Origin: Clostridioides difficile ATCC 9689 = DSM 1296
Lineage (GTDB): Bacteria; Bacillota; Clostridia; Peptostreptococcales; Peptostreptococcaceae
NCBI RefSeq assembly: GCF_001077535.1
Contig: NZ_CP011968.1
Coordinates: 372,001-436,000, forward strand
Direction of reading: 5' to 3'
DNA: 64,000 nt
Shown here: positions 34,171 to 52,389 of the stretch, piece after piece
Numbering within the stretch: position 1 is the stretch's first letter
Layout: each line of letters opens with the position of its first letter
The notes under the pieces: model-generated
Told to the model about the DNA's origin: nothing
Database searches by the model: none
Seen by the model: the letters and a program-made list of their open reading frames with translations, nothing else
Translations under genes and position numbers: made by a program

Positions 34171-35269
34171 ATGCACTATAACTACACACAAAAATTTATC
34201 CGTTAAGATTGATTACATCAGCATTGTATTTGAAACTGCAACCGCTGAAGATGTAATCATGCACATTTTAGATTTACCGACTGACATTTTCAATGTTTAT
34301 CCAGCAACGATAAAATTCAAGACTTATCAAGCACGCTGGCAGATTGGAGATATTTATGTATCGGGGGACGCAAGAAAGACAGAGGACAACCCACAGGGAC
34401 TAGGCTGTTATCTTGTTATGACTGGCAGAGGTTGTGATGATATTTTCCGTATTCTCGACAGTAGGAATTATACCTTTGGGGATATGTTCCGACGCTGTGA
34501 GCGAAGATACGGACTGGATAATTTCCATTTCACAAGACTTGATATTGCCATTGATGATAAGAACGAAAAGCCATTCTTTACCATAGAGCAGATAAAGAAG
34601 AAATGCGAAAAAGAGGAATTTATCTCGAATAGTGAGGGCTACCACTTTGACGAAAGCAAGTTTGATGATTTCGACACCGCAAAGACTGTTTATATCGGTG
34701 CTGGTAAATCGGGATTGTCCTACCGCTTTTATGATAAAGATAAGGAAGTCTGTTCAAAACATAATAAGACACTTGATGAAGTCGGCAGTTGGAAACGGAC
34801 AGAAATGCAACTGCGTGATGATAAGGCTCATGCTTTTGCCATGACATTCAAAGACAGACCGCTGGAACTTGGGGAACTGGCTTTCGGGCTATTGGCAAAC
34901 AACTTACGCTTTGTCGTGCCAAACAGAAATGAAAGTAATAAGAGCAGATGGAAAACGTGTCGGTTTTGGGAACGCTTTTTAGGGGCTGTGGAAGTCTTGA
35001 AACTGCAAGTACCGAAACTACATAATTCTCTTGAAGAAACACAGCAATGGCTCACAGAGGGTGGTGTGATTTCCGCTGTCAAAAGTTTTTACTTCTTAGA
35101 AGAACATGACGCATTAGGTGGACTGGAAAAAGTGGGAACTATGCTTGATAAGGCAAGATACAGCAATTCCCTTTCCAGTAAACTAACCGCCCACTTACAG
35201 AGGATAGACCGCACCGACCTTATCCCCTATATCCAGTATGACACGAAACATGGGAAAGGGGGTATCTGA
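34171..35269 (+). pseudogene. Tn916 Orf20-like Rep/relaxase protein with apparent N-terminal frameshift
   Basis: The main frame (34259-35269, 336 residues from ATG 34259) encodes a replication-initiation/relaxase-like protein of Tn916 type, with FHFTRLDIAIDDK, GLSYRFYDKDKEV and WKRTEMQLRDDKA. Coding similarity clearly extends upstream of that ATG (KIDYISIVFETATAEDV at about 34205-34255), but no start codon exists in that frame. The ATG at 34171, after GAAAGGAG, reads MHYNYTQK and then stops. Removing one A from the A5 run at 34190-34194 joins the frames. It is either a frameshift mutation, a sequencing error, slippage, or a start at 34259 giving a shortened protein. Its end overlaps xis (ATGA). 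Confidence 0.7.
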
Positions 35270-35472
35270 TGAATAACAACGATATTCCTGTATGGGAAAA
35301 ATACACCCTTACCATTGAAGAAGCGTCAAAGTATTTCCGTATCGGAGAAAACAAGTTAAGACGATTGGCAGAGGAAAACAAGGACGCTGGCTGGCTCATT
35401 ATGAATGGCAACCGCATACAGATTAAACGCCGACAGTTTGAACAGGTTATTGACAAATTGGACGCTATCTAA
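35269..35472 (+). CDS. xis: Tn916-type excisionase Xis
   Basis: A 67-residue DNA-binding protein: [34 protein letters not shown], with the winged-helix excisionase fold of Tn916 Xis. It directs the integrase toward excision. GGGGG precedes the ATG, which overlaps the stop of the upstream gene. int follows 78 bases later. Confidence 0.92.
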
Positions 35473-35550
35473 TGCAAATGAGCCTTGTATGTGTTATGAT
35501 GAACACAAGTCATATCAAGGCTCTTTCCAACAAGGAAAGGAGCAGACACC

Positions 35551-36744
35551 ATGAAAGAAAAAAGACGGGATAGTAAAGGACGTATCCTGCATACTGGAGA
35601 GAGCCAACGAACAGACGGAAAATACTTATATAAATATGTGGACGCATTTGGAAACACAAAATATGTGTATGCTTGGAGATTGACACCCACAGACCCGACA
35701 CCAAAGGGAAAACGGGAAAAACCCTCACTTCGTGAACTGGAACAGCAGATAAGACGGGATATTGAGGACGGTATCGACAGCACAGGCAAGAAAATGACGC
35801 TTTGCCAACTCTACGCCAAACAGAACGCACAGAGGGCAAATGTGAAGAAAAGCACACAGAAACAACGGGAACAGCTCATGCGGTTATTGAAAGAGGACAA
35901 GTTAGGTGCTAGGAGCATTGATACGATAAAACCCTCTGACGCTAAGGAATGGGCGTTACGCATGAAAGACAAAGGCTTTTCCTATAACACCATTAACAAC
36001 CATAAACGCTCGTTAAAAGCGTCATTCTATATCGCCATACAAGACGATTGTGTAAGGAAAAACCCTTTTGATTTCAAGTTAAGTGAAGTCATAGAAAATG
36101 ATACCAAAGAGAAAGTCGCATTGACAGAGGAACAGGAACAAGCCCTACTCTCATTCATCAAGACGGACAATGTGTATCACAAGTATTATGATGATGTGCT
36201 GATACTGTTAAAGACAGGACTTCGTATCTCGGAACTGTGCGGACTAACAATCATGGACATTGATTTTATCCATGAAGTTGTGGTTATCAACCATCAGTTA
36301 TTAAAGAGCAAGGAACAGGGCTATTATATTGAAACGCCTAAGACAAAAAGCGGAACAAGGCAAGTGCCATTAAGTAGAGAAACGATACAGGCATTTCAAC
36401 GGGTTATAAAGAAACGCCCAAAGGCAGAACCATTTGTGATAGACGGACGAGGCAACTTTCTATTTGTCAATCATAAAGGCAAGCCCAAAGTTGCGATTGA
36501 TTACAATATGCTTTTTGTCCGTATAGTAAAGAAATACAACAAGCACCATAAGGATAACCCTTTGCCACATATCACACCACATACGCTACGCCATACATTC
36601 TGCACAAGATTGGCAAGCAAGAACATGAACCCGAAAGATTTACAGTATATCATGGGACATTCAAACATCAGTATCACAATGAACTGGTATGCTCATGCGT
36701 CCATAGATACCGCAAAATCAGAGGTTCAGCGTCTAATTGCATAA
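35551..36744 (+). CDS. int: Tn916-family tyrosine integrase
   Basis: A 397-residue tyrosine recombinase. The N-terminal arm-binding domain (KEKRRDSKGRILHTGESQRT, YLYKYVDAFGNTKYVYAWRL) is that of Tn916 Int. Catalytic residues are visible: Arg in LKTGLRISELCGL (about 227), His/Arg in HTLRHTFCTRLA, His in MGHSNISI and the nucleophile Tyr in MNWYAHAS near the end. It carries out integration and excision of the element. Slightly shorter than Tn916 Int (405). AAGGAG precedes the ATG. Confidence 0.95.
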   Translation: MKEKRRDSKGRILHTGESQRTDGKYLYKYVDAFGNTKYVYAWRLTPTDPTPKGKREKPSLRELEQQIRRDIEDGIDSTGKKMTLCQLYAKQNAQRANVKKSTQKQREQLMRLLKEDKLGARSIDTIKPSDAKEWALRMKDKGFSYNTINNHKRSLKASFYIAIQDDCVRKNPFDFKLSEVIENDTKEKVALTEEQEQALLSFIKTDNVYHKYYDDVLILLKTGLRISELCGLTIMDIDFIHEVVVINHQLLKSKEQGYYIETPKTKSGTRQVPLSRETIQAFQRVIKKRPKAEPFVIDGRGNFLFVNHKGKPKVAIDYNMLFVRIVKKYNKHHKDNPLPHITPHTLRHTFCTRLASKNMNPKDLQYIMGHSNISITMNWYAHASIDTAKSEVQRLIA

Positions 36745-42155: not shown

Positions 42156-42992
42156 ATTAAACCTCCTTTTTTAAATAAGTATTGTACTTGTGAAAAATAA
42201 ATTTGTTTATGAAGATAACATTTACTACTGTTTGTTCTAAAGATTATAATAGAATATTTTTTTGATATAATCTATATTTTTCTTATTAAATTTTCTTATT
42301 AGATATTTAATATCAATATTTTTTAGATAGAAAAGATTTTAATAACTCCAAATATTTAATAAGTAAAATAAAATTATTGCTTTAAAATATATTTTTATAT
42401 GTTTTAAGTTTTATAATAAGTAATATTGTATGATAAATTAAATTTAAATATTTAGAGATAAGCTATTATAGAATTTGCTTAGTTTAAGTTAAATTTTAAA
42501 ATATTCAAAAAGGGGCTAGAGTCTGGAAATTTTTATTTAAAGAATACACATAAAAATTTCTAGACTCTCATCATTTAAAAGAAGTATTCTAAATTTATTA
42601 TTTATAATTAAATATTATCTGAAAAAATGGTATTTTTATACCTTTGTTTGTTATGCATAATTTTACTTAGAACATAAGCTTTATATAAAATAATTAAAAA
42701 TATACCTAATTAAAATAAGTAAAAAAAGAGCTATCATAGAACAAATTTAATTTGCTCATGTGACAGCTCCTTTTTAGATGATGCTTTTTTAGATTTATAC
42801 TATAAGGTATATAAAACTAAGTTTATTAAAAATGTTATAATTTCTATTGCTATCATAGACCATATCAATCCATCAAGTTCATAAAAGTAATTAAGCTTTA
42901 TTAAATAGCTTCTTTATTATAATTTCTTTATTTCATATAATATAAATAGTATTAAAATTTTTATGGGAGTTAAAGTAAGCATGTATTATTAC
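42156..42992. other. Long AT-rich intergenic region with two hairpins
   Basis: About 840 bases without a supportable gene. An 18-bp inverted repeat with one mismatch lies at 42518-42535 and 42551-42568. A second hairpin with A/T runs lies at about 42724-42775 and may terminate the minus-strand PHP gene. The remainder shows nothing clear; a small RNA here is possible but unsupported. Confidence 0.5.
42724..42775. terminator. Bidirectional hairpin terminator
   Basis: AAAAAGAGCT ... AGCTCCTTTTT arms with inner CAAATTTAATTTG. Similar in design to the hairpin at 41325-41363. Confidence 0.6.
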
Positions 42993-43736
42993 TTAGATAT
43001 TTGTATAATCAACATCTAGTAATTTACCTTTTTGGTGAAAATGATTAATAAGTTTTTTAGGATAATTCATTATTAATTCATCTGGAAAATTAATTTCCTT
43101 TAAGATATTTTCAGAATACTCATAGTTACCTATGTCAAAACAAATGTGAGCATCTGAAGTCAGTATGATTTTAGCACCATATTTTTTGCAAAGTGTAGCA
43201 ATATACTTACAGTTATCCGAGCTACCATTTCTTGACACGCCTTTAATAGAACAATTATTTATTTCTATTAAGATATTCTTTTCTATAGCTAATTTAATGA
43301 TTAATTCATAGTCGATTGGGTAGTTTGGGTTTCCAAGGTGTCCTAATATTTCAATATTATCATGCTTATTTATTGCATTTATTAAAGCTTTAGTATTATT
43401 CTCTAATGTATTTGGAGAAAACACAGCTTCGTGAAATGACAAGATAAGATAATCTAACCGAGGAATTACAAAAGGCTCTAGGTCTATGTTTCCTTTAATA
43501 TCTAGTATATTTGCTTCACAGCCTCTTAAAATTATAATGTTATTTATGATTCTTGGGATATTTTGAATGTTGTGAAAGTACCATTTGTGGGGAGAACCAG
43601 GCATCTTAGGACCATGTTCAGATGTACCTAGTATCTTAATTCCATTTTCTTTACAATAATTAATATTTTCTAGTAAAGTGCTATAGCCATGACCACTGAC
43701 TATAGAGTGTGTGTGTAAATCTGATAAAAAATTCAT
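42993..43736 (-). CDS. PHP-domain metal-dependent phosphatase (YcdX-like)
   Basis: A 247-residue PHP hydrolase. Metal-binding motifs: SDLHTHSIVSGHGYSTLLEN (residues 4-23), GTSEHGPKMPGSPH, ILGHLGNPNYPIDYE and LTSDAHICFDIGNYE. Such enzymes hydrolyse phosphoesters with two or three metals; the substrate is unknown. ATG 43736 follows GAGGAGG by 6 bases; the frame extends further up but without a ribosome binding site. Divergent from the LevR-type regulator. Confidence 0.88.
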   Translation of the reverse strand: MNFLSDLHTHSIVSGHGYSTLLENINYCKENGIKILGTSEHGPKMPGSPHKWYFHNIQNIPRIINNIIILRGCEANILDIKGNIDLEPFVIPRLDYLILSFHEAVFSPNTLENNTKALINAINKHDNIEILGHLGNPNYPIDYELIIKLAIEKNILIEINNCSIKGVSRNGSSDNCKYIATLCKKYGAKIILTSDAHICFDIGNYEYSENILKEINFPDELIMNYPKKLINHFHQKGKLLDVDYTNI

Positions 43737-43901
43737 ATAAATTCCTCCTCTATAAAAGATGAGGGTAACGTAATTTATATTATAAAACGAATAGGAAAGA
43801 AAATCAATAGTTACATAATTAGACAAAAATATTAAAATATTGTAGAATTAAGCTTAATAATAAATGTTTAACAGTATTACTGCTTATAGGGGAGGTTAAC
43901 T

Positions 43902-46469
43902 ATGACACAAAAGAAGCTATCAAGGAAAGAAAAAGTTTTAATTTGCTTGAAAAGGTTAACAGAAGAACACTTGAACTTTAATAATGGCATTAGATTTGGA
44001 TTTGATGCAGAATATATAGCTACTGAAGTAGGTATAAATAGAAGTAATGCTAGTAAGGAATTAAATCAATTAATAAAAGAAAGTATTATTATAAAGATAA
44101 AGGGTAAGCCTGTTCAGTACTTATATAAAGAAAGTATTGAGAGTATTTTAGGAAAGAAACTAAATAAAGGGATATTTGATAATATTAACTCTATAAACGA
44201 ATATAGTGAAAATGATTCTATCAAAGATGAGTATATTTTAGAGAGTATAAAAAAAGAGAACAATATTTTTAATTTAGTAGGATGTGATGGAAGTTTAAGG
44301 TCCCAAATAGAACAGGCTAAAGCAGCAGTAATATATCCACCTAAGGGGTTGAGTACATTAATAATAGGACCTACAGGAGTTGGTAAATCTATATTTGCAG
44401 AATATATGTATAAGTATAGTTTAACTATAAAAGAAGATAGTGATAATGCACCATTTATCATATTTAACTGTGCTGATTATTCTGATAATCAGCAATTATT
44501 ATTAGCGCAGCTTTTTGGATATGTAAAAGGAGCATTTACTGGAGCTGATAAAGATAAGTATGGTATTGTACATGAAGCTAATAATGGAGTATTGTTTTTA
44601 GATGAAGTTCATAGATTATCTGCAGAGGGACAAGAAATGCTATTTCTGCTTATGGATAAAGGGATATATAGAAGGTTAGGAGAGGCTAATAAGGTACACG
44701 AGTGTAGAGTTATGATAATTGCAGCCACTACAGAAGACCCAGAAACAGCAATGTTGGAAACGTTTTTAAGAAGAATACCTGTAACTATAAAGATTCCGTC
44801 TTTAGAGGAAAGAGGCTTTCAAGAGAGAATGAAGCTTATATGTTATTTTTTTAAAGAAGAGAGTGTTAGGATTGGTGTTAAGTTAAAGGTTTCAAAAGAA
44901 GTTATTAAGGCATTTATTTTATATAAGTGTAAGGGAAATATAGGCCAATTAAAAAGCGATATACAATTAATTTGTGCAAGAGCTTTTTTAGATTATATGA
45001 CCTATAAAAGGGAATGTGTATATGTAAGGCTCTCTCTTCTACCAAATAATATTAGAGAATCATTATATGGAAATAATAGAAAAGAGGAGTTTGTACAAAA
45101 TTTCAGTTTTATTGGAAAAGATGATATTATTTTTTTACCAGAAGAAAAGGATTTTGAAAGTGAAAATTTATTAATAGAAAATAAAAAATATGATTTAGAT
45201 TTTTATGGAATGATAAAAGAAACTTGGAATAAACTTCAACAAGAAGGTATTAAAGAGTCACAAATTAGAAGTGTTATAGATGGAGACATACAGAAGTATT
45301 CCTATAATTTAATGAATACTTTTATATATAATAGTAGTAATCAAACAGCTTATAACAACATTGTTAATGATTCAATTGCAACTACTGTAAAATATATTTT
45401 ACAAAAGCATGATAAATGGAGCAAAAGAGAAGGATTAGATAAATTAATAAAAGCTATAGCTTTACATATTCAGAATTTAATTGAAAGAATAAAGATTGGA
45501 AATATAGTAAAGCATCCTAATAAAGATGAAATTATGAAGGAAAGAGCATATGAATATAACATAGCAAAAGAAATATTATCTAACATGTCATTAATGTATG
45601 GAGTAGAGTTTCCAGAAGATGAAGCAATTTTTTTAGCAACATTTCTTTATTTATCGTATGTGGGATTAAATGAGGAGAGTATAGCAATATTAGTCATAAT
45701 GCATGGTGAATCTACAGCATCTAGCATGGTGAATGTAGCCAATACTTTACTGGATTGTAACCATGCAGTGGCAATTAATATGGGATTAGAAGATAGAGTT
45801 CAGGATATTTTAGTACAAGCTGTAGAAATAGCCAATAAAATTGATAAAGGAAAAGGAATTTTAATTTTAACTGATATGGGGTCTATTTTAACATTTGCTA
45901 AAGTTATTCGTGATGCTACAGGAAAAGAAGTAAAAGCAATAGATATGGTAAGTACACCTATTGTAATAGAAGCAACTAGAAAGGCTCTAACTCCAGAAAT
46001 GACATTAGAGAAATTATATTTTAATATTATAGAATCTATAAAGAAACATTATGGAGATATGGAAGTTACATATGCTGAAAAAGATAATGGTGGTAGATAT
46101 TTTGATAGATTACTAATTGATAATATTAGTAAAACTTTGACTTTTTTAAATGGGGAAAAGGCTTATTTTATATTAAAAGAAGTAATTAATAGAATTAGTG
46201 AACACTATTCTTTAGTAATTCAAGATGAACTTTTAGTAAAGTTTATATTTCATTGTTCATGTATGATTGAAAGAGTAATAATAAAAGAGTCTTTAGTTTA
46301 TAAATCATATGAAGAAAGAATTAGTAGAAATAAAGAATTATATTTAGTTATAAAAGAAAGTTTTAAGCTAGTAGAAGAGACATTCGATATAATTATTTCA
46401 GATATGGAATATGCAAATATATTAGATATATTTGAATCACAATATGATACAGATAAATTCAAAAGTTGA
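43902..46469 (+). CDS. LevR-type sigma-54-dependent PTS regulator
   Basis: An 855-residue activator. An N-terminal winged HTH (residues about 1-70) is followed by an AAA+ domain with P-loop LIIGPTGVGKSIFAEY (about 150), the sigma-54 contact GAFTGA (about 210) and FLDEVHRLSAEGQEMLF. Then come a PRD, an EIIA-Man-like domain (AILVIMHGESTASSMVNVAN, about 598-617), an EIIB-like part and a C-terminal PRD. PRDs are phosphorylated by the PTS to tune activity. It should activate the sigma-54 promoter at 46647 for the PTS operon. AAGGAGG-like GGGGAGG precedes the ATG. Confidence 0.95.
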   Translation: MTQKKLSRKEKVLICLKRLTEEHLNFNNGIRFGFDAEYIATEVGINRSNASKELNQLIKESIIIKIKGKPVQYLYKESIESILGKKLNKGIFDNINSINEYSENDSIKDEYILESIKKENNIFNLVGCDGSLRSQIEQAKAAVIYPPKGLSTLIIGPTGVGKSIFAEYMYKYSLTIKEDSDNAPFIIFNCADYSDNQQLLLAQLFGYVKGAFTGADKDKYGIVHEANNGVLFLDEVHRLSAEGQEMLFLLMDKGIYRRLGEANKVHECRVMIIAATTEDPETAMLETFLRRIPVTIKIPSLEERGFQERMKLICYFFKEESVRIGVKLKVSKEVIKAFILYKCKGNIGQLKSDIQLICARAFLDYMTYKRECVYVRLSLLPNNIRESLYGNNRKEEFVQNFSFIGKDDIIFLPEEKDFESENLLIENKKYDLDFYGMIKETWNKLQQEGIKESQIRSVIDGDIQKYSYNLMNTFIYNSSNQTAYNNIVNDSIATTVKYILQKHDKWSKREGLDKLIKAIALHIQNLIERIKIGNIVKHPNKDEIMKERAYEYNIAKEILSNMSLMYGVEFPEDEAIFLATFLYLSYVGLNEESIAILVIMHGESTASSMVNVANTLLDCNHAVAINMGLEDRVQDILVQAVEIANKIDKGKGILILTDMGSILTFAKVIRDATGKEVKAIDMVSTPIVIEATRKALTPEMTLEKLYFNIIESIKKHYGDMEVTYAEKDNGGRYFDRLLIDNISKTLTFLNGEKAYFILKEVINRISEHYSLVIQDELLVKFIFHCSCMIERVIIKESLVYKSYEERISRNKELYLVIKESFKLVEETFDIIISDMEYANILDIFESQYDTDKFKS

Positions 46470-46639
46470 TACAAAATTTAAAAATAGCCAAAAGGCTATC
46501 TTTTTTTTACTTTTTTTGATACAGATTTGATACAGGTTGAAAAAATCTTTTGATACATATCGAAATAATAAGTTTTTAAAAAAAATTGAGTAAAAAGTTT
46601 TGATTAAATCCTGTAAAATAGCCATTTGTTATTGATACA
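46466..46639 (+). promoter_or_regulatory. Five TTGATACA repeats: candidate activator binding sites
   Basis: The octamer TTGATACA occurs in the same orientation at 46466, 46516, 46527, 46550 and 46632. The 11-base and 23-base steps are one and two helical turns. They lie 10-180 bases upstream of the -24 box, where enhancer sites for LevR-type activators are expected. The first copy overlaps the regulator's stop codon. Confidence 0.6.
46483..46510 (+). terminator. Terminator of the levR-type gene
   Basis: AATAGCC / GGCTATC-type stem with an AAAA loop, followed by eight or more T residues. Confidence 0.85.
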
Positions 46640-46646
46640 CATAAGT

Positions 46647-46661
46647 TGGCACGGCAATTGC
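46647..46661 (+). promoter_or_regulatory. Sigma-54 (-24/-12) promoter of the PTS operon
   Basis: TGGCAC (46647-46652), five bases, TTGC (46658-46661) fits the sigma-54 consensus exactly. Transcription should start near 46673, shortly before the EIIA gene. The regulator upstream carries the GAFTGA loop needed to activate such promoters. Confidence 0.93.
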
Positions 46662-46698
46662 TTATATAAAAAGTGACAAGAAAAGTGAGGTGAAATTG

Positions 46699-47103
46699 GT
46701 GATAGGAATAATAGTTATGACTCATGGGAGTTTTAGTGAAGAAATTATAAAAAGCTGTGAACTTATTGCAGGACCAGCAGAAAGAACAGCAGCAATTAAA
46801 CTAAATAGGAATGATAATATTGAAGACTTAAATAAAAATTTTGTAGAAAAGTTAAATGAATTAGATGAAGGTGACGGAGTTTTAGTATTAGCTGACCTAT
46901 TAGGAGGTTCGCCAAGTAATGTTGCAAGTTTAAACCTTAAAAAAGGTGGCAAGTTTCATGCACTTACTGGAGTAAATCTTCCAATGCTACTTGAAGCTTT
47001 AATTAATAGAGAGGGAAAAAGTTTAGAAGAGTTAGCAGAAGCATGTATTGAAGCAGGACAAACTGGTATAAACAATATTAATAAAGTTCTTAGCTCAATG
47101 TAA
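46699..47103 (+). CDS. PTS mannose-family EIIA component (first copy)
   Basis: A 134-residue cytoplasmic phosphocarrier. The N-terminal IIVMTHGSFSEEIIKSCELI carries the phosphorylated His (MTHG), and VLVLADLLGGSPSNVA is the second family motif. It passes phosphate from HPr to EIIB. GTG 46699 is chosen (MIGIIVM), as GTGAGGTG (46685-46692) is 6 bases upstream; GTG 46690 lies within that site. Confidence 0.93.
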   Translation: MIGIIVMTHGSFSEEIIKSCELIAGPAERTAAIKLNRNDNIEDLNKNFVEKLNELDEGDGVLVLADLLGGSPSNVASLNLKKGGKFHALTGVNLPMLLEALINREGKSLEELAEACIEAGQTGINNINKVLSSM

Positions 47104-47126
47104 TAGAAAAAGGAGTTTGATTAAAA

Positions 47127-47624
47127 ATGTCTTTAGTAAAATATTGCAGATGTGATGATAGATTAATACATGGTCAAGTTATATATAAATGGGTTAAGCA
47201 TCTAGGTGTAAAAAAGATAGTAGTAGTAGATGATGAAACAACCAATGATGTTATTGCTAAAGGTTTGATAAAAATGGCAGCACCAAAGAATATTGATTTA
47301 TCAATATTAACTGTAAGTGAATCAAGGAGATATTTTTATAATAATCAAGCTGATGATAACGTTTTTGTATTAATTAAAAATTTAGATACTGCAAATAGAA
47401 TGATAGAAGAAGGGATTAATATCAAAAAACTTATTGTTGGAAGAATACCTACAGGAATAGGAAAAAAGAAAATATCTCAAAATGTATACATTAATAAAAA
47501 AGAGTTTCTTTTAATAGATGAATTTATTAAAAAGAATATTAATGTATCAATTCAAATGGTACCTGATGAAGAAGAAGTAGAATTAAACCAAAATATTAAT
47601 CGCTATAAAGGAGAGTTTATTTAG
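47127..47624 (+). CDS. PTS mannose-family EIIB component (first copy)
   Basis: A 165-residue protein with VKYCRCDDRLIHGQVIYKWV, where the His in LIHGQV is the phosphorylation site, and KLIVGRIPTGIGKKKISQNV. It transfers phosphate to the incoming sugar at EIIC/EIID. It is about 23 bases from the EIIA gene, with AAGGAG before the ATG, and differs clearly from the second EIIB copy at 48046. Confidence 0.93.
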   Translation: MSLVKYCRCDDRLIHGQVIYKWVKHLGVKKIVVVDDETTNDVIAKGLIKMAAPKNIDLSILTVSESRRYFYNNQADDNVFVLIKNLDTANRMIEEGINIKKLIVGRIPTGIGKKKISQNVYINKKEFLLIDEFIKKNINVSIQMVPDEEEVELNQNINRYKGEFI

Positions 47625-47626
47625 CA

Positions 47627-48028
47627 ATGAATAAATATAAGGTAATCATACTGTGCCATGGAACTTGGGGAAAAGTCTTAGTAGAAGAAACAAATAAAAA
47701 CTTTGGATTGTCAAATCAATATGAAGTTTTATCACTAAGTTCTGAAAAAGATGTTTCTGTATTTATGAAAGAGGTTGAAGAAGTAGTAGATAAAGAAGAT
47801 GTGAAAATTATAATATCAGATTTATATGGAGGATCTACATCAAGTGTTGCAATAGCTGTTGCTATAAGAAGAGGAATAGATGCAATAAATGGACTTAGCT
47901 TACAGACAATTTTAATCGTAGATGAAGAATTAAGCAAAGAAGATAAATTACATACATTACCAGAAAGAATCGTCAAAAAAAATAATAACCTTTGTGTGGA
48001 TTTAATTAAAGAATTTAAAAAAATATAA
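47627..48028 (+). CDS. PTS mannose-family EIIA component (second, divergent copy)
   Basis: A 133-residue EIIA-like protein: KVIILCHGTWGKVLVEETNK retains the His (CHGTWG), and IIISDLYGGSTSSVAIAVAI matches the EIIA core. It is divergent from the first EIIA. It may be a second phosphocarrier pairing with the second EIIB, or a regulatory one acting on the LevR-type activator. ATG lies 2 bases after the previous stop. Confidence 0.85.
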   Translation: MNKYKVIILCHGTWGKVLVEETNKNFGLSNQYEVLSLSSEKDVSVFMKEVEEVVDKEDVKIIISDLYGGSTSSVAIAVAIRRGIDAINGLSLQTILIVDEELSKEDKLHTLPERIVKKNNNLCVDLIKEFKKI

Positions 48029-48045
48029 ATTATGAGGTGAATATA

Positions 48046-48534
48046 ATGGCAAAAATAACATTAGTAAGAGTAGACCACAGATTAATTCATGGGCAAGTTA
48101 TAACAAAATGGGTAAAAATCGCTCAAGCTCAAAAAATAATAATAGTTGATGACTTCTTAGGTCAAGATGAATTTATGGCTGACATATATAAAATGGCAGC
48201 ACCATCAGGAGTAGAAGTAGTTATTTTAACAGCAGAAGATGCGGGACAAGCATTCCAAAACAACACTTTAGGAGATAAAAATATATTTATTCTATTTAAA
48301 AATGTTGATATGGCAAATAAGGCTTATAAAGCTGGACTTAAATATGAAAAGATTCAATTAGGAGGTATTCCAAATGAAGCAGGAAAGAAAATGGTGTTTA
48401 CAGCTGTTTCATTAGGAAATGAGGATGTAGAACAACTTAATGAACTTAATGAAAATGGGGTTGAAATAGTCCTACAAGTTATACCAGAGGAATCATCTAT
48501 GACATATGAAAATGCGTTAAAGAAATTTAAATAA
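48046..48534 (+). CDS. PTS mannose-family EIIB component (second copy)
   Basis: A 162-residue protein with ITLVRVDHRLIHGQVITKWV (active His in LIHGQV) and IQLGGIPNEAGKKMVFTAVS, the canonical EIIB-Man pattern. ATG 48046 is chosen over GTG 48037, because TGAGGTG (48033-48039) is 6 bases upstream. The EIIC gene follows 26 bases later. Confidence 0.94.
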   Translation: MAKITLVRVDHRLIHGQVITKWVKIAQAQKIIIVDDFLGQDEFMADIYKMAAPSGVEVVILTAEDAGQAFQNNTLGDKNIFILFKNVDMANKAYKAGLKYEKIQLGGIPNEAGKKMVFTAVSLGNEDVEQLNELNENGVEIVLQVIPEESSMTYENALKKFK

Positions 48535-48560
48535 AAAATATAAATTAGGAGGAATTATAA

Positions 48561-49316
48561 ATGGAATCTGTTTTGATGTTGGCAATTGTAACAGGATTAT
48601 GGTATTGGTTTGCAGCAGGTCTTGCAGGGTATACCCTTTTCTCAACACTAAAGTCTCCTTTATTTATAGGTTTTAGCCTTGGATTACTTTGGGGTGATGT
48701 AACAACTGGTATGATTGTTGGTGCAAGTATAGAAATGGTTTATCTAGGAATGGTCGCAGCAGGGGGAAATATTCCATCAGATAAATGTCTAGCTGCTCTT
48801 ATTGCAATACCAGTAGCACTTCAAACTGGTGTTAATGCAGAAGTTGCAGTATCTATTGCGGTACCTTTAGGTGTTATAGGAGTATTAGTTAATAACTTAA
48901 GAAGAACTGGTAATGCTGTATTGGTTCATAAGGCAGATAAGTATGCTGAAGAAGGTAATACAAAAGGCATCTGGAGATGTGCAACACTTTATTCTTTAAT
49001 ATTTGGGTTTGTTTTAAGGTTTCCAATAGTTTTTGTATGTAACTTTTTTGGAGCAGATTTAGTTCAATCATTATTAGATGTTATACCACAATGGTTAATG
49101 AATGGATTAACAGTAATGGGCGGTATATTACCTGCATTAGGTTTTGCAACAACAATATTTACTATAGGTAAAAATAAATTTTTACCAATGTTTATTATAG
49201 GATTTTTTATGGTTCAATATTTTGAAATATCAATTACTGCAGCTGCAATATTTGGTGTTTGTATAGCTCTTTTAATTACCTTTATGAAAGAAGACAAAAG
49301 GGTAGGTGAAGTATAA
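48561..49316 (+). CDS. PTS mannose-family EIIC membrane component
   Basis: A 251-residue membrane permease subunit with about seven hydrophobic segments; conserved LWGDVTTGMIVGASIEMVYL and AAGGNIPSDKCLAALIAIPV. With EIID it forms the channel. AGGAGG precedes the ATG. Its stop overlaps the EIID start by one base (49316), so synthesis is coupled. Confidence 0.95.
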   Translation: MESVLMLAIVTGLWYWFAAGLAGYTLFSTLKSPLFIGFSLGLLWGDVTTGMIVGASIEMVYLGMVAAGGNIPSDKCLAALIAIPVALQTGVNAEVAVSIAVPLGVIGVLVNNLRRTGNAVLVHKADKYAEEGNTKGIWRCATLYSLIFGFVLRFPIVFVCNFFGADLVQSLLDVIPQWLMNGLTVMGGILPALGFATTIFTIGKNKFLPMFIIGFFMVQYFEISITAAAIFGVCIALLITFMKEDKRVGEV

Positions 49317-50179
49317 TGCAAGAAATAAAAAATAAAGAAGTTAAAAATGGACAAGGTCCAACTGAAGTTAATAAGACAAGAGTACTTACAAAGAAAGATG
49401 TAACAAAAACATATCTAAGATGGTGGTGGACAGCAGAATTATCCAACTCTTTTGAAAGAATGCAAGCATTAGCAGTTTGTGCAAGTTTCACTCCGGCTTT
49501 AGAAAAGTTATATAAGAGAAAAGAAGATTTAGTAGATGCGTTAAAGAGACACTTACAATTTTTTAATACTCAAGCTATATGGGGAGGATTAATTCACGGT
49601 ACAGTTTTAGCTATGGAAGAAGAGAAAGCTACTGAAGGAAAAATCCCAGGAGAAGTTATTTCAGGTGTTAAGAATGGTCTTATGGGACCTTTGGCTGGAA
49701 TTGGAGATACTTTAGATTTTGGTACATTTCAAACAATATTCTTAGCTTTAGGTGCTTCATTTGGAGCAGAAGGAAGTGTTATAGGTGCATTTTTCCCAAT
49801 AATGTTTAGTATATTACTATTTTGCGAAGGTTATTACTTATTTCATTTAGGATATTCTTTAGGTAGAGATTCAATTAAGAAAATTCTATCAGGTGGTATT
49901 GTCAATAAGATAATTGATGGTGCTTCAATTCTAGGAATGTTTATGATGGGAGCATTATCTGCAACTACAGTTAAGCTTTCAACTCCGCTATCATTTGATA
50001 TTGGTGGTAAAGCAATTGTTGTTCAAGATACATTAAATATGATTGCTCCAGGTTTATTACCACTTGGTGTTGTATTCTTCGTATATTGGGGAATGAAATA
50101 CAAGAAGTGGACAATAACTAAGTTATTAGTAATTTTAGTTGTATTAGCATTGGTAGGGTCATTCATTGGAATATTCTAA
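49316..50179 (+). CDS. PTS mannose-family EIID membrane component
   Basis: A 287-residue protein with WTAELSNSFERMQALAVCAS, FFNTQAIWGGLIHGTVLAME, NGLMGPLAGIGDTLDFGTFQ (family signature) and C-terminal membrane helices. An N-terminal extension of about 30 charged residues precedes the domain. Forms the sugar channel with EIIC. Confidence 0.95.
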   Translation: MQEIKNKEVKNGQGPTEVNKTRVLTKKDVTKTYLRWWWTAELSNSFERMQALAVCASFTPALEKLYKRKEDLVDALKRHLQFFNTQAIWGGLIHGTVLAMEEEKATEGKIPGEVISGVKNGLMGPLAGIGDTLDFGTFQTIFLALGASFGAEGSVIGAFFPIMFSILLFCEGYYLFHLGYSLGRDSIKKILSGGIVNKIIDGASILGMFMMGALSATTVKLSTPLSFDIGGKAIVVQDTLNMIAPGLLPLGVVFFVYWGMKYKKWTITKLLVILVVLALVGSFIGIF

Positions 50180-50225
50180 TTCACAGTGATTAAAATATAG
50201 AATTTAATTTTAGGAGGAGAAAGAA

Positions 50226-50705
50226 ATGTCAGAAAAAATGTATACAGAAAAGGAATATTTAGAAGGAATTAGAGGAGCAACAGGAGAAAGAGCAGTATGG
50301 TTCTATCTTCTTATGAAAGAAGCTGAAAAATTAGGAGCTAATCCAGATGATATATGTAAAGAAGCAATATATGGATTTGGTAAAATGAGAGGTCAAAAAT
50401 ATAACGTAGCAGATACTCCAGGAAAAATGGCAGAAATGTTATATAACAGTAAAGGACAAAAAGTGTTTGAAATGGAATTAGTAGAAAATACAGATGAGAA
50501 TGGCGTTTTAAAATTCCATCACTGTCCATTAGATGCTGCTTGGAAAGAATATGGATTAACTAAAGAAGAAAGAAAAGAAATTTGTAGATTAGCTTGTTAT
50601 GGGGATTATGGAAGAGTTGACTGCGCACAAGGTGTTAAATTAGATTTTGCTCAAAAATGTGCTCATGATGATGAAGTTTGTGAATTAGTATTTACAAAAA
50701 AATAA
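50226..50705 (+). CDS. L-2-amino-thiazoline-4-carboxylate hydrolase-family protein
   Basis: A 159-residue cytoplasmic protein. YLEGIRGATGERAVWFYLLM, KFHHCPLDAAWKEYGLTKEE and GDYGRVDCAQGVKLDFAQKC fit the ATC hydrolase family (AtcB-like) as I remember it. The known family member opens the thiazoline ring of ATC to N-carbamoyl-L-cysteine. His and Cys residues in HHCPLD and VDCAQG are likely functional. It closes the sigma-54 PTS operon, with AGGAGG before the ATG and a terminator after it. The real substrate here is unknown. Confidence 0.8.
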   Translation: MSEKMYTEKEYLEGIRGATGERAVWFYLLMKEAEKLGANPDDICKEAIYGFGKMRGQKYNVADTPGKMAEMLYNSKGQKVFEMELVENTDENGVLKFHHCPLDAAWKEYGLTKEERKEICRLACYGDYGRVDCAQGVKLDFAQKCAHDDEVCELVFTKK

Positions 50706-50712
50706 TTTTTAA

Positions 50713-50750
50713 TGCTAAAAGCCTGTTCTTTAAGGACAGGCTTTAAAAAG
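50713..50750 (+). terminator. Terminator after the ATC hydrolase gene
   Basis: AAAGCCTGT / ACAGGCTTT, a perfect 9-bp stem with a loop of about 9 bases. The tail is A-rich rather than T-rich on the plus strand, so read-through into the M20 peptidase gene is possible. Confidence 0.7.
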
Positions 50751-50769
50751 ATAGAAAGTAGGTTGATTT

Positions 50770-52077
50770 ATGGATATAAGCAGAAGTGTAGATAATAGTT
50801 TAAATAGAACCATAGAATTTCTAAAAGAATTGATAAAAATTGATTCACAACAAGGTGAACCTATTTCACAATGTCCTTTTGGTATAGGACCTAAAAAATC
50901 TTTAGATAAAACTTTAGATTACTGTGCTAGTTTAGGTTTTAGTGTTAAAAATATTGATAATTATATTGGATATGCAGAAATTGGAGAGGGAGAGGAATTA
51001 ATAGGGATTCCAATGCATTTAGATATAGTTCCACCAGGAGAGGGGTGGAGTGTAGACCCATTTTCGGGAGCAGTAATTGACAATATTATTTATGGAAGAG
51101 GTGTCATAGATAATAAGGGTGCTGTATCTATGCTTATACATGTATTGAAAAACATAGAGGATATGTATCCTACAATTAATAAAAGAATAAGATTAATTTT
51201 TGGTACAAATGAGGAGACAGGTATGAAATGTATCAAATATTACTTAGATAAAGGTGAAGAAATTCCAAGTATGGGATTTACTCCAGATGCTATGTATCCA
51301 GTGGTTAATGGAGAAAAAGGAAGGGTTCATATAAGGATAGAAAAAGAAATTAAAATTGACAAAAGTAAACCTTACATAATAGTAAGGGGAGGAACTAAAG
51401 AAAATGTTGTTCCATCTCATTGTACTGCAAAAATTATTAATGGAATTATTTCAGAGTTAACTACTAAAGGAGTAGCTGTACATGCAAGTAATCCTGAAAA
51501 GGGAGAAAATGCTATATCTAAAATGGTAATAAAGATAGTTGAGGATAATATGGATTTTCAGCATAGAGAAGATATAGAATTAGTTTCAAAATACCTTTGT
51601 AGTGATTATTATGGAGATGCATTGGGGATTAATCAATATGATGAGGTATTCAAAAACACTACCTTAAATTTAGGAATATTAAAAGTAAATGAGGAAAAAA
51701 TCGTATGTGAGTTAGATATAAGGTATGGTAAAAATATAGTTTTAAATAACATAATAGATAGATTCAAAAAGGTTTTTTGTAATGGTTGGAAAATAGAGGT
51801 TATTGCTCATAAAGACTTACATTATGTGGATGAGAGTAATTTAGTACTTAAAAAATTATTAGAAGCCTATGAAGAAGTAACAGATGAAAATGGATATACA
51901 ATTGCTATGGGTGGTGGCACATATGCAAGTTGGTTTAAAGATATGGTGGCGTTTGGACCTAAGTTCTTAGCGTATAAAACTGGTGGTCATGGAGTAGATG
52001 AAAGAGTACCAATAAATCATATACGAAAGAATATGGAGATATATACTTTGGCTTTAATAAAACTATTAGAATTGTAA
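50770..52077 (+). CDS. M20-family metallopeptidase (dipeptidase, PepV-like)
   Basis: A 435-residue zinc enzyme. IPMHLDIVPPGEGWSVDPFS carries the first His and Asp; YGRGVIDNKGAVSMLIHVLK and FGTNEETGMKCIKYYLDKGE give the bridging Asp and catalytic Glu pair. HCTAKI and GGGTYASWF follow, and the last His is in TGGHGVDERVPINH. Related enzymes cleave dipeptides or N-acyl/N-carbamoyl amino acids. It follows the PTS/ATC-hydrolase genes by 64 bases; cotranscription by read-through is plausible. Confidence 0.9.
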   Translation: MDISRSVDNSLNRTIEFLKELIKIDSQQGEPISQCPFGIGPKKSLDKTLDYCASLGFSVKNIDNYIGYAEIGEGEELIGIPMHLDIVPPGEGWSVDPFSGAVIDNIIYGRGVIDNKGAVSMLIHVLKNIEDMYPTINKRIRLIFGTNEETGMKCIKYYLDKGEEIPSMGFTPDAMYPVVNGEKGRVHIRIEKEIKIDKSKPYIIVRGGTKENVVPSHCTAKIINGIISELTTKGVAVHASNPEKGENAISKMVIKIVEDNMDFQHREDIELVSKYLCSDYYGDALGINQYDEVFKNTTLNLGILKVNEEKIVCELDIRYGKNIVLNNIIDRFKKVFCNGWKIEVIAHKDLHYVDESNLVLKKLLEAYEEVTDENGYTIAMGGGTYASWFKDMVAFGPKFLAYKTGGHGVDERVPINHIRKNMEIYTLALIKLLEL

Positions 52078-52175
52078 AAGAAGAAGAGACTTTATGTGCA
52101 AATTTACAGATATCTTAAAAAGAGAGATAAAACGAGTTCAACCTTATTTAAATGTTCAACACCATCAAATGGGGC

Positions 52176-52283
52176 TGTCTCAAAATAGAGATAAGCCTCT
52201 TACTTATTGTTGAAATGATGAAAATATATTTTACTTCATACAAAAAAGAGTGCCTTATGAAGTAAAAAGTTAATTTTGAGACA
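52176..52283. repeat. MITE-like repeat, copy 2
   Basis: A 108-bp segment bounded by TGTCTCAAAAT (52176-52186) and ATTTTGAGACA (52273-52283), matching the reverse complement of copy 1 (27514-27620) throughout. The first ~20 bases and the last ~30 are nearly identical. It has no coding capacity. Confidence 0.7.
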
Positions 52284-52389
52284 CCCTCATTTGATGATGT
52301 TGAAGAGAAAATAAGTATGAAATTATTAAAAAAGATGATTTTAAAAAAGTTAAGGTTGAAAAGAAAAGTTAATTAAATGGAATTAGATA

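Follow-up and report, generated by a model that had tools for sequence, protein, structure and literature searches.

A probably horizontally shared PTS cassette with ATC-hydrolase-family and M20 dipeptidase genes in Clostridioides difficile: a cysteine-linked sugar as the probable substrate

Uptake of amino-acid-like sugars by phosphotransferase systems (PTSs) has precedents in Salmonella, in the D-glucosaminate (Dga) system and in the glucoselysine/fructoselysine (Gfr) system, the latter a PTS for amino-acid-linked sugars with a LevR-like sigma-54 activator, as outlined in PMC4987338. Two further described routes concern cysteine: Pseudomonas converts 2-aminothiazoline-4-carboxylate (ATC) to L-cysteine (summarized in PMC10821248), and cysteine itself is fermented through CyuP-CyuA or CdsB. 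Here we analyzed a 64,000-nucleotide stretch of the genome of Clostridioides difficile ATCC 9689 = DSM 1296 (NZ_CP011968.1, positions 372,001 to 436,000 of the forward strand; "the window"), in which a sigma-54-dependent mannose-family PTS operon is followed by genes for an ATC-hydrolase-family protein and an M20 peptidase. Its gene context makes a cysteine-linked sugar the probable substrate of this importer.

The PTS itself, its activator and its promoter (CD0283-CD0289) are already known. Table 4 of PMC7438776 gives the PTS as the SigL-dependent operon CD0284-CD0289 with the LevR-type protein CD0283, at 0.2 to 0.3-fold in a sigL mutant, and the -24/-12 promoter of the window, TTGGCACGGCAATTGCTTA (46646..46664, + strand), is identical to the sequence printed there for C. 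difficile CD0284. The published operon has the same PTS, activator and promoter as the window and, as listed, ends at EIID, without the ATC-family, M20 and PHP genes or the CyuA remnant described below. A weaker promoter of the operon in an RT078 strain is mentioned in PMC9130780, and a two- to threefold increase of the PTS under low iron in PMC6311696. What is new here is the PTS-linked ATC/M20 block with predicted genes for a CyuA cysteine desulfidase and a HAD phosphatase in seven Actinomycetota loci, and with predicted CyuA and RidA genes in a locus of Clostridium paraputrificum (L119). Literature searches, made over titles and abstract openings mostly outside subscription journals and including the names CD0290 and CD0291 (assumed by counting on from CD0289), returned no account of this pathway.

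Compared with the described systems, the window shares with Dga a mannose-family PTS and a LevR-like sigma-54 activator (DgaR in Salmonella), but in place of matches to the ammonia lyase DgaE and the aldolase DgaF the cassette has the ATC-family protein, the M20 enzyme and, in relatives, CyuA. The deglycases GfrE and GfrF are the defining enzymes of Gfr, and no deglycase-type family of this kind is present among the annotated genes of the block, whose hydrolases are of the ATC and M20 types instead. With the Pseudomonas route the cassette has in common an ATC-family protein and an M20-superfamily enzyme, followed by cysteine degradation; it differs in PTS import and phosphorylation and in a dipeptidase-type M20, and the likeness holds at the level of PF14196 only. 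CyuA with its essential residues is shared, in the operons of relatives, with the CyuP-CyuA and CdsB fermentation systems, but here a PTS and hydrolases apparently supply it in place of a cysteine importer.

The gene association recurs in a second phylum. Seven Actinomycetota loci, comprising six from Atopobiaceae found in a scan of named genomes (L123-L128) and one found with EIIC among 346 genomes of the same class (L160), all have the order IIA-IIB-IICD (fused)-ATC-M20-CyuA-HAD, with family names taken from L127 and the genes of the other loci assigned by similarity. The proteins of L123-L128 are 55-60% (ATC) and 38-39% (M20) identical to those of the window, and the Atopobiaceae M20 matches the window M20 with 347 bits, the next match in its own genome having 117 bits, which indicates orthology. 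The original prediction was to fall if the hydrolase and peptidase genes did not accompany the PTS; they are co-conserved with it across species, genera and the two phyla. That the hydrolase and M20 genes are chance neighbors was rejected on the basis of the fixed order in the seven loci together with the sharp-ended shared block described below. Upstream of the operon, each of L123-L128 and L160 also has a divergent gene for a DUF4143 ATPase.

The CyuA genes supply the connection to cysteine. The CyuA-like protein of L127 matches the solved L-cysteine desulfidases 9he0 and 9fsl over nearly its whole length (E 3e-31). PMC12647591 reports that the Methanococcus enzyme cannot do without Cys23 and Glu25, neither of which serine dehydratases conserve, and the Fe-S cysteines of the desulfidase are listed in PMC5767170. 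All five key positions (Cys, Glu and three Fe-S cysteines; CECCC) are kept in the seven Actinomycetota operon copies, and identity as serine dehydratases was rejected because the essential Cys and Glu are retained in every one. L119 has an intact CyuA gene, whose 421-aa product carries the GCTE and cysteine motifs and shares 59% identity with the L127 protein. This gene begins 16 bp downstream of M20, and a gene for a Rid-family enamine deaminase (RidA) comes next. RidA beside CyuA suits aminoacrylate, since cysteine desulfuration yields this enamine; RidA was seen in L119 alone, with no match in 15 other loci and the window slice. Pieces of CyuA were detectable by tblastn in four of the six Clostridioides genomes that bear the block (G004, G005, G006 and G009); G010 and the window slice gave no match. 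The window retains what looks, by eye against L119 and L122, like the stub of a decayed CyuA gene, with a start codon and about a dozen codons (52094..52130, + strand), too short for tblastn; to judge from these remnants, the cassette's own CyuA is decayed in Clostridioides. The C. difficile genome holds one unlinked CyuA homologue (G000 C1:3616430-3617692), presumably CdsB. Cysteine release by the pathway is well supported by gene context, and the cysteine link drawn in the original prediction is strengthened by the desulfidase gene that adjoins in relatives. Shortly beyond the stub, at 52155-52304, lies a 32-nt inverted repeat, whose arms are 91% complementary and separated by 86 nt; it may be what is left of a small transposon.

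The ATC-hydrolase family was also surveyed beyond the cassette. In 297 genomes of the order, 49 matches were found in 43 genomes, and the neighbors of all 43 matches from outside the genus (37 genomes) were examined. CyuA lies within the stretch for 11 of these 43 genes and within 250 bp for seven, where 0.23 and 0.008 would be expected by chance from CyuA copy numbers. Related genomes do not count as independent cases, but the 11 span five families. Complete Liv-type ABC transporter sets adjoin 19 of the 43 (L099-L108, L113-L116, L186, L190-L192 and L194), suggesting import of an ATC-like amino acid. The findings are consistent with a role of ATC-family proteins of anaerobes in uptake routes that end in cysteine, the importer here being a PTS akin to the D-glucosaminate kind. 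Residues invariant in a 26-sequence alignment of the ATC protein include R16, R22, W25, C100, C120, D127 and C152. The three cysteines might bind a metal or cluster and, together with the Liv-type sets, would suit a protein that binds small molecules or partners importers and CyuA, rather than a ring hydrolase; we regard such a role as quite unlikely, since the family takes its name from an enzyme of a cysteine-forming route, in keeping with the link to CyuA.

Within Clostridioides, the PTS, hydrolase and M20 genes occur together in six of eight genomes (EIID at least 97%, ATC at least 96% and M20 at least 93% identical); in the other two, ATC has no match, EIID is at most 43% identical and M20 34% over its full length. 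The whole homologous block, or cassette, spans 9.2 kb (42897..52126; no strand assigned), as defined by blastn of L119, L120 and L121 against the window (94-95% identity). These three loci stop sharply at both ends, matching nothing outside 42897-52126 at E <= 1e-10, whereas L122, from the same genome as G005, shares flanks beyond the block. The L119 block is 94% identical to that of the window at the DNA level despite an HtpG only 74% identical, compared with 96-98% within Clostridioides; on this ground a mislabelled Clostridioides genome was rejected, and the contrast is read as horizontal transfer between the window and L119 lineages. The block would then be a horizontally shared catabolic cassette, with transfer between genera following from the identity contrasts. 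Between the window and L119, dN/dS is 0.04 for ATC, 0.18 for M20 and 0.05-0.24 for the PTS genes; with values of 0.04 and 0.09, ATC ranks with the block's more strongly constrained genes. An EIIC search of 348 genomes of the phylum (E <= 1e-50) matched the C. difficile genome alone, so the system appears rare there, and a viral_contigs scan found no relative. The searches covered 1155 genome look-ups with repeats counted, and further lineages may therefore exist.

The PTS lineage was placed through EIIC. The class-wide search that yielded L160 gave 30 places, four of them already in the set; 14 of the other 26 were examined, and identity does not exceed 43% in the 12 not included. L160 is 66% identical, seven loci are 48-50% and six 38-42%. 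DgaE and DgaF accompany EIIC in all seven loci of the 48-50% group and ATC/M20 in none, while the six more distant loci have neither pair. DgaE was identified by the solved ammonia lyase 7lc0 and DgaF by solved aldolases, plus NCBIfam, where DgaE scored 468 of 600 bits in the strict model and above the DgaE-family model, and DagF scored above its cut-off. A tree built from 34 of the 56 collected EIICs groups the ATC-type PTSs of the window and Atopobiaceae in one clade (support 100/99), whose nearest neighbor is the Dga-type clade. This arrangement, like the gene content, order, conservation and CyuA decay described above, is directly observed. It fits the amino-acid-linked sugar import of the original prediction, although the substrate named there rests on inference. 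The same nearness, a best activator model of the DagR type (far under its cut-off) and the capacity of a mobile block to carry passengers would also accommodate a PTS for an ordinary sugar or an amino-sugar acid such as D-glucosaminate, with ATC and M20 as unrelated passengers. We judge this rather unlikely: DgaE and DgaF have no match in L119-L128 or L160, or among the window block genes, ATC, M20 and CyuA keep one arrangement across two phyla, with identities of 38-60%, and ATC is under comparatively strong constraint.

The M20 enzyme (50770..52077, + strand; Pfam Peptidase_M20) scores 347 bits with TIGR01887 against a cut-off of 208 and resembles the solved 3khx and pepV 1lfw, which places it with the PepV/Sapep dipeptidases, below the PepV equivalog cut-offs (NF005591, 367 of 435 bits; TIGR01886, 258 of 632 bits). 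The original prediction had likened it to the M20-type amidohydrolase of Pseudomonas; this family assignment argues against a carbamoylase, and since the enzyme is of PepV/Sapep type, the likeness is at the superfamily level only. The assignment also bears on two other substrates. A 2-thiazoline or N-acyl-cysteine of a sugar acid could be opened by the ATC protein and cut at the amide by M20 to give a sugar acid phosphate and cysteine, as in the Pseudomonas route; such a substrate would employ both enzymes in the classic order without an extra peptide, with CyuA still following in relatives, and the closest PTS lineage outside the ATC-type clade belongs to a sugar-acid type. We nonetheless consider it unlikely, as the PepV/Sapep assignment makes the M20 enzyme a predicted dipeptidase and at most a putative N-acyl-cysteine amidase, and we know of no abundant gut source of such compounds. 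A Cys-aminosugar amide thiol, such as a bacillithiol or mycothiol fragment from which M20 would free cysteine and leave glucosamine phosphate, links cysteine to a PTS of the amino-sugar type and to an enzyme that cuts amides; it leaves the ATC-family protein without a clear job, the bacillithiol and mycothiol enzymes known to us are not of M20 type, and we hold it to be very unlikely.

We propose a general account in which the cassette imports a sugar adduct of cysteine or a cysteine peptide through the PTS and breaks it down to cysteine and its products, an explanation that we place slightly short of an even call. The mannose-family PTS would import and phosphorylate a sugar-like compound joined to cysteine or a Cys-containing dipeptide, most likely a thiazolidine of an aldose with Cys or Cys-Gly. 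The open-chain polyol of glucosaminate, with its amine-bearing carbon and carboxylate, resembles an aldose-cysteine thiazolidine. The ATC-hydrolase-family protein would then open the sulfur-nitrogen ring, the PepV-type M20 enzyme would split the Cys dipeptide, for which its dipeptidase character suggests a compound such as Cys-Gly, CyuA would degrade cysteine to pyruvate, ammonia and H2S, and RidA would clear the enamine. The phosphorylated sugar part may be handled by a phosphatase, perhaps PHP in clostridia and HAD in Atopobiaceae, and in Clostridioides the unlinked CyuA homologue may replace the decayed copy of the cassette. We infer the reactions on the actual substrate, their order and the substrate from the gene complement; the specific form, a PTS route for Cys-sugar (or Cys-Gly-sugar) thiazolidines in gut clostridia and Atopobiaceae leading to sugar phosphate and to cysteine and onward to pyruvate, ammonia and H2S, is possible and tentative, with the balance against it. 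To our knowledge it would be the first PTS substrate class with a sulfur heterocycle. The original prediction lacks the best clues to this account: the PHP gene and CyuA remnant of the window and, in relatives, the genes for CyuA, RidA and HAD.

Several observations weigh against the proposed route. The window block has no working linked CyuA, only the stub, and a simple Cys-sugar thiazolidine needs no M20, so that the peptide is added by assumption. A profile search of the PDB with the ATC-family protein gave one match (E 0.72, taken as chance), and its AlphaFold model, built with 11 related sequences, has a mean pLDDT of 46; with no relative of solved structure at the sequence level and an unusable model, its hydrolase mechanism is unproven. 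Among the CyuA-like neighbors of other ATC-family genes, four of 11 (L111, L112, L117 and L176) have Asp for the key Glu, perhaps for another substrate, and one of 11 has an inner stop in the aligned part, which complicates a simple picture. None of the 43 other ATC-family genes has a PepV-like M20 beside it, so M20 seems particular to the PTS version. The support for the Dga-type clade as nearest relative is only 86/89, and PHP looks truncated in G010, where the match is limited to residues 118-247, and may be dispensable. A conserved hairpin between ATC and M20 (50718..50744, + strand) may limit M20 transcription; it is kept in six loci, with one pair varying as T.G, T-A or C-G and pairing preserved. 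Read-through is likely, as the hairpin has three T at the stem foot with no T-run after it and is not scored in the terminator listing of the window. Finally, PMC6615313 lists a GfrR-gfrABCDEF regulon for Clostridioides, which may refer to this locus or to another.

Open reading frames and Pfam matches bear out the gene layout read in the original prediction, from activator and -24/-12 promoter through EIIA-EIIB-EIIA-EIIB-EIIC-EIID to the ATC-family and M20 genes, all on the + strand. The activator (43902..46469; Pfam Sigma54_activat, PRD and EIIA-man) combines an AAA+ sigma-54 domain, PRDs and an EIIA domain beside the -24/-12 promoter and is LevR/DgaR-type in this respect; its best NCBIfam model, DagR NF047795, scores 542 bits, under the cut-off of 1400, which places it outside DagR. 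Five TGATACA repeats, candidate activator sites, lie upstream of the -24/-12 element (46467..46639); L120, L121 and L122 have five each and L119 four. EIIA (1) (46690..47103; PF03610, 94 bits) has the conserved N-terminal His, and EIIB (1) (47127..47624; PF03830, PTSIIB_sorb, 151 bits) has RLIHGQV. The divergent EIIA-like (2) (47627..48028) has no Pfam match and weak NCBIfam EIIA scores (23-27 bits), with the N-terminal His kept. EIIB (2) (48037..48534; PF03830, PTSIIB_sorb, 162 bits; RLIHGQV) is nearest to the single Atopobiaceae EIIB, with 59-62% identity in L123-L128. The window thus has an additional EIIB-EIIA pair (47127-48028) between EIIA (1) and EIIB (2), where Atopobiaceae operons have one of each. 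EIIC (48561..49316; PF03609, EII-Sor), EIID (49316..50179; PF03613, EIID-AGA) and the ATC-hydrolase-family gene (50226..50705; ATC_hydrolase PF14196, 36.2 bits against a cut-off of 28.1) follow. Gaps are -1 to 46 bp from EIIA (1) through ATC, 64 bp between ATC and M20, and 220 bp between the activator and EIIA (1). Divergent from the operon lies a gene for a PHP-domain, phosphoesterase-like protein (42993..43736, - strand; PF02811, 28.8 bits against a cut-off of 26.4; NF006702, 348 bits), at least 95% identical in six of eight genus genomes and at best 44-45% in the other two, a presence pattern that nearly equals that of the operon. Elsewhere in the window, Rep-like and integrase-like open reading frames at 34259-36744, which by eye resemble part of an integrative element, lie downstream of flagellar-looking genes.

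Whichever substrate proves right, a precise gene set is now defined for testing. If the proposed route is true, the SigL-controlled PTS annotated for mannose, fructose or sorbose would not be a plain hexose system, and the poorly studied ATC-hydrolase family would gain a role in anaerobes. Clostridioides and gut Atopobiaceae would then be users of a new class of nutrients, and H2S in the gut would have a new source.

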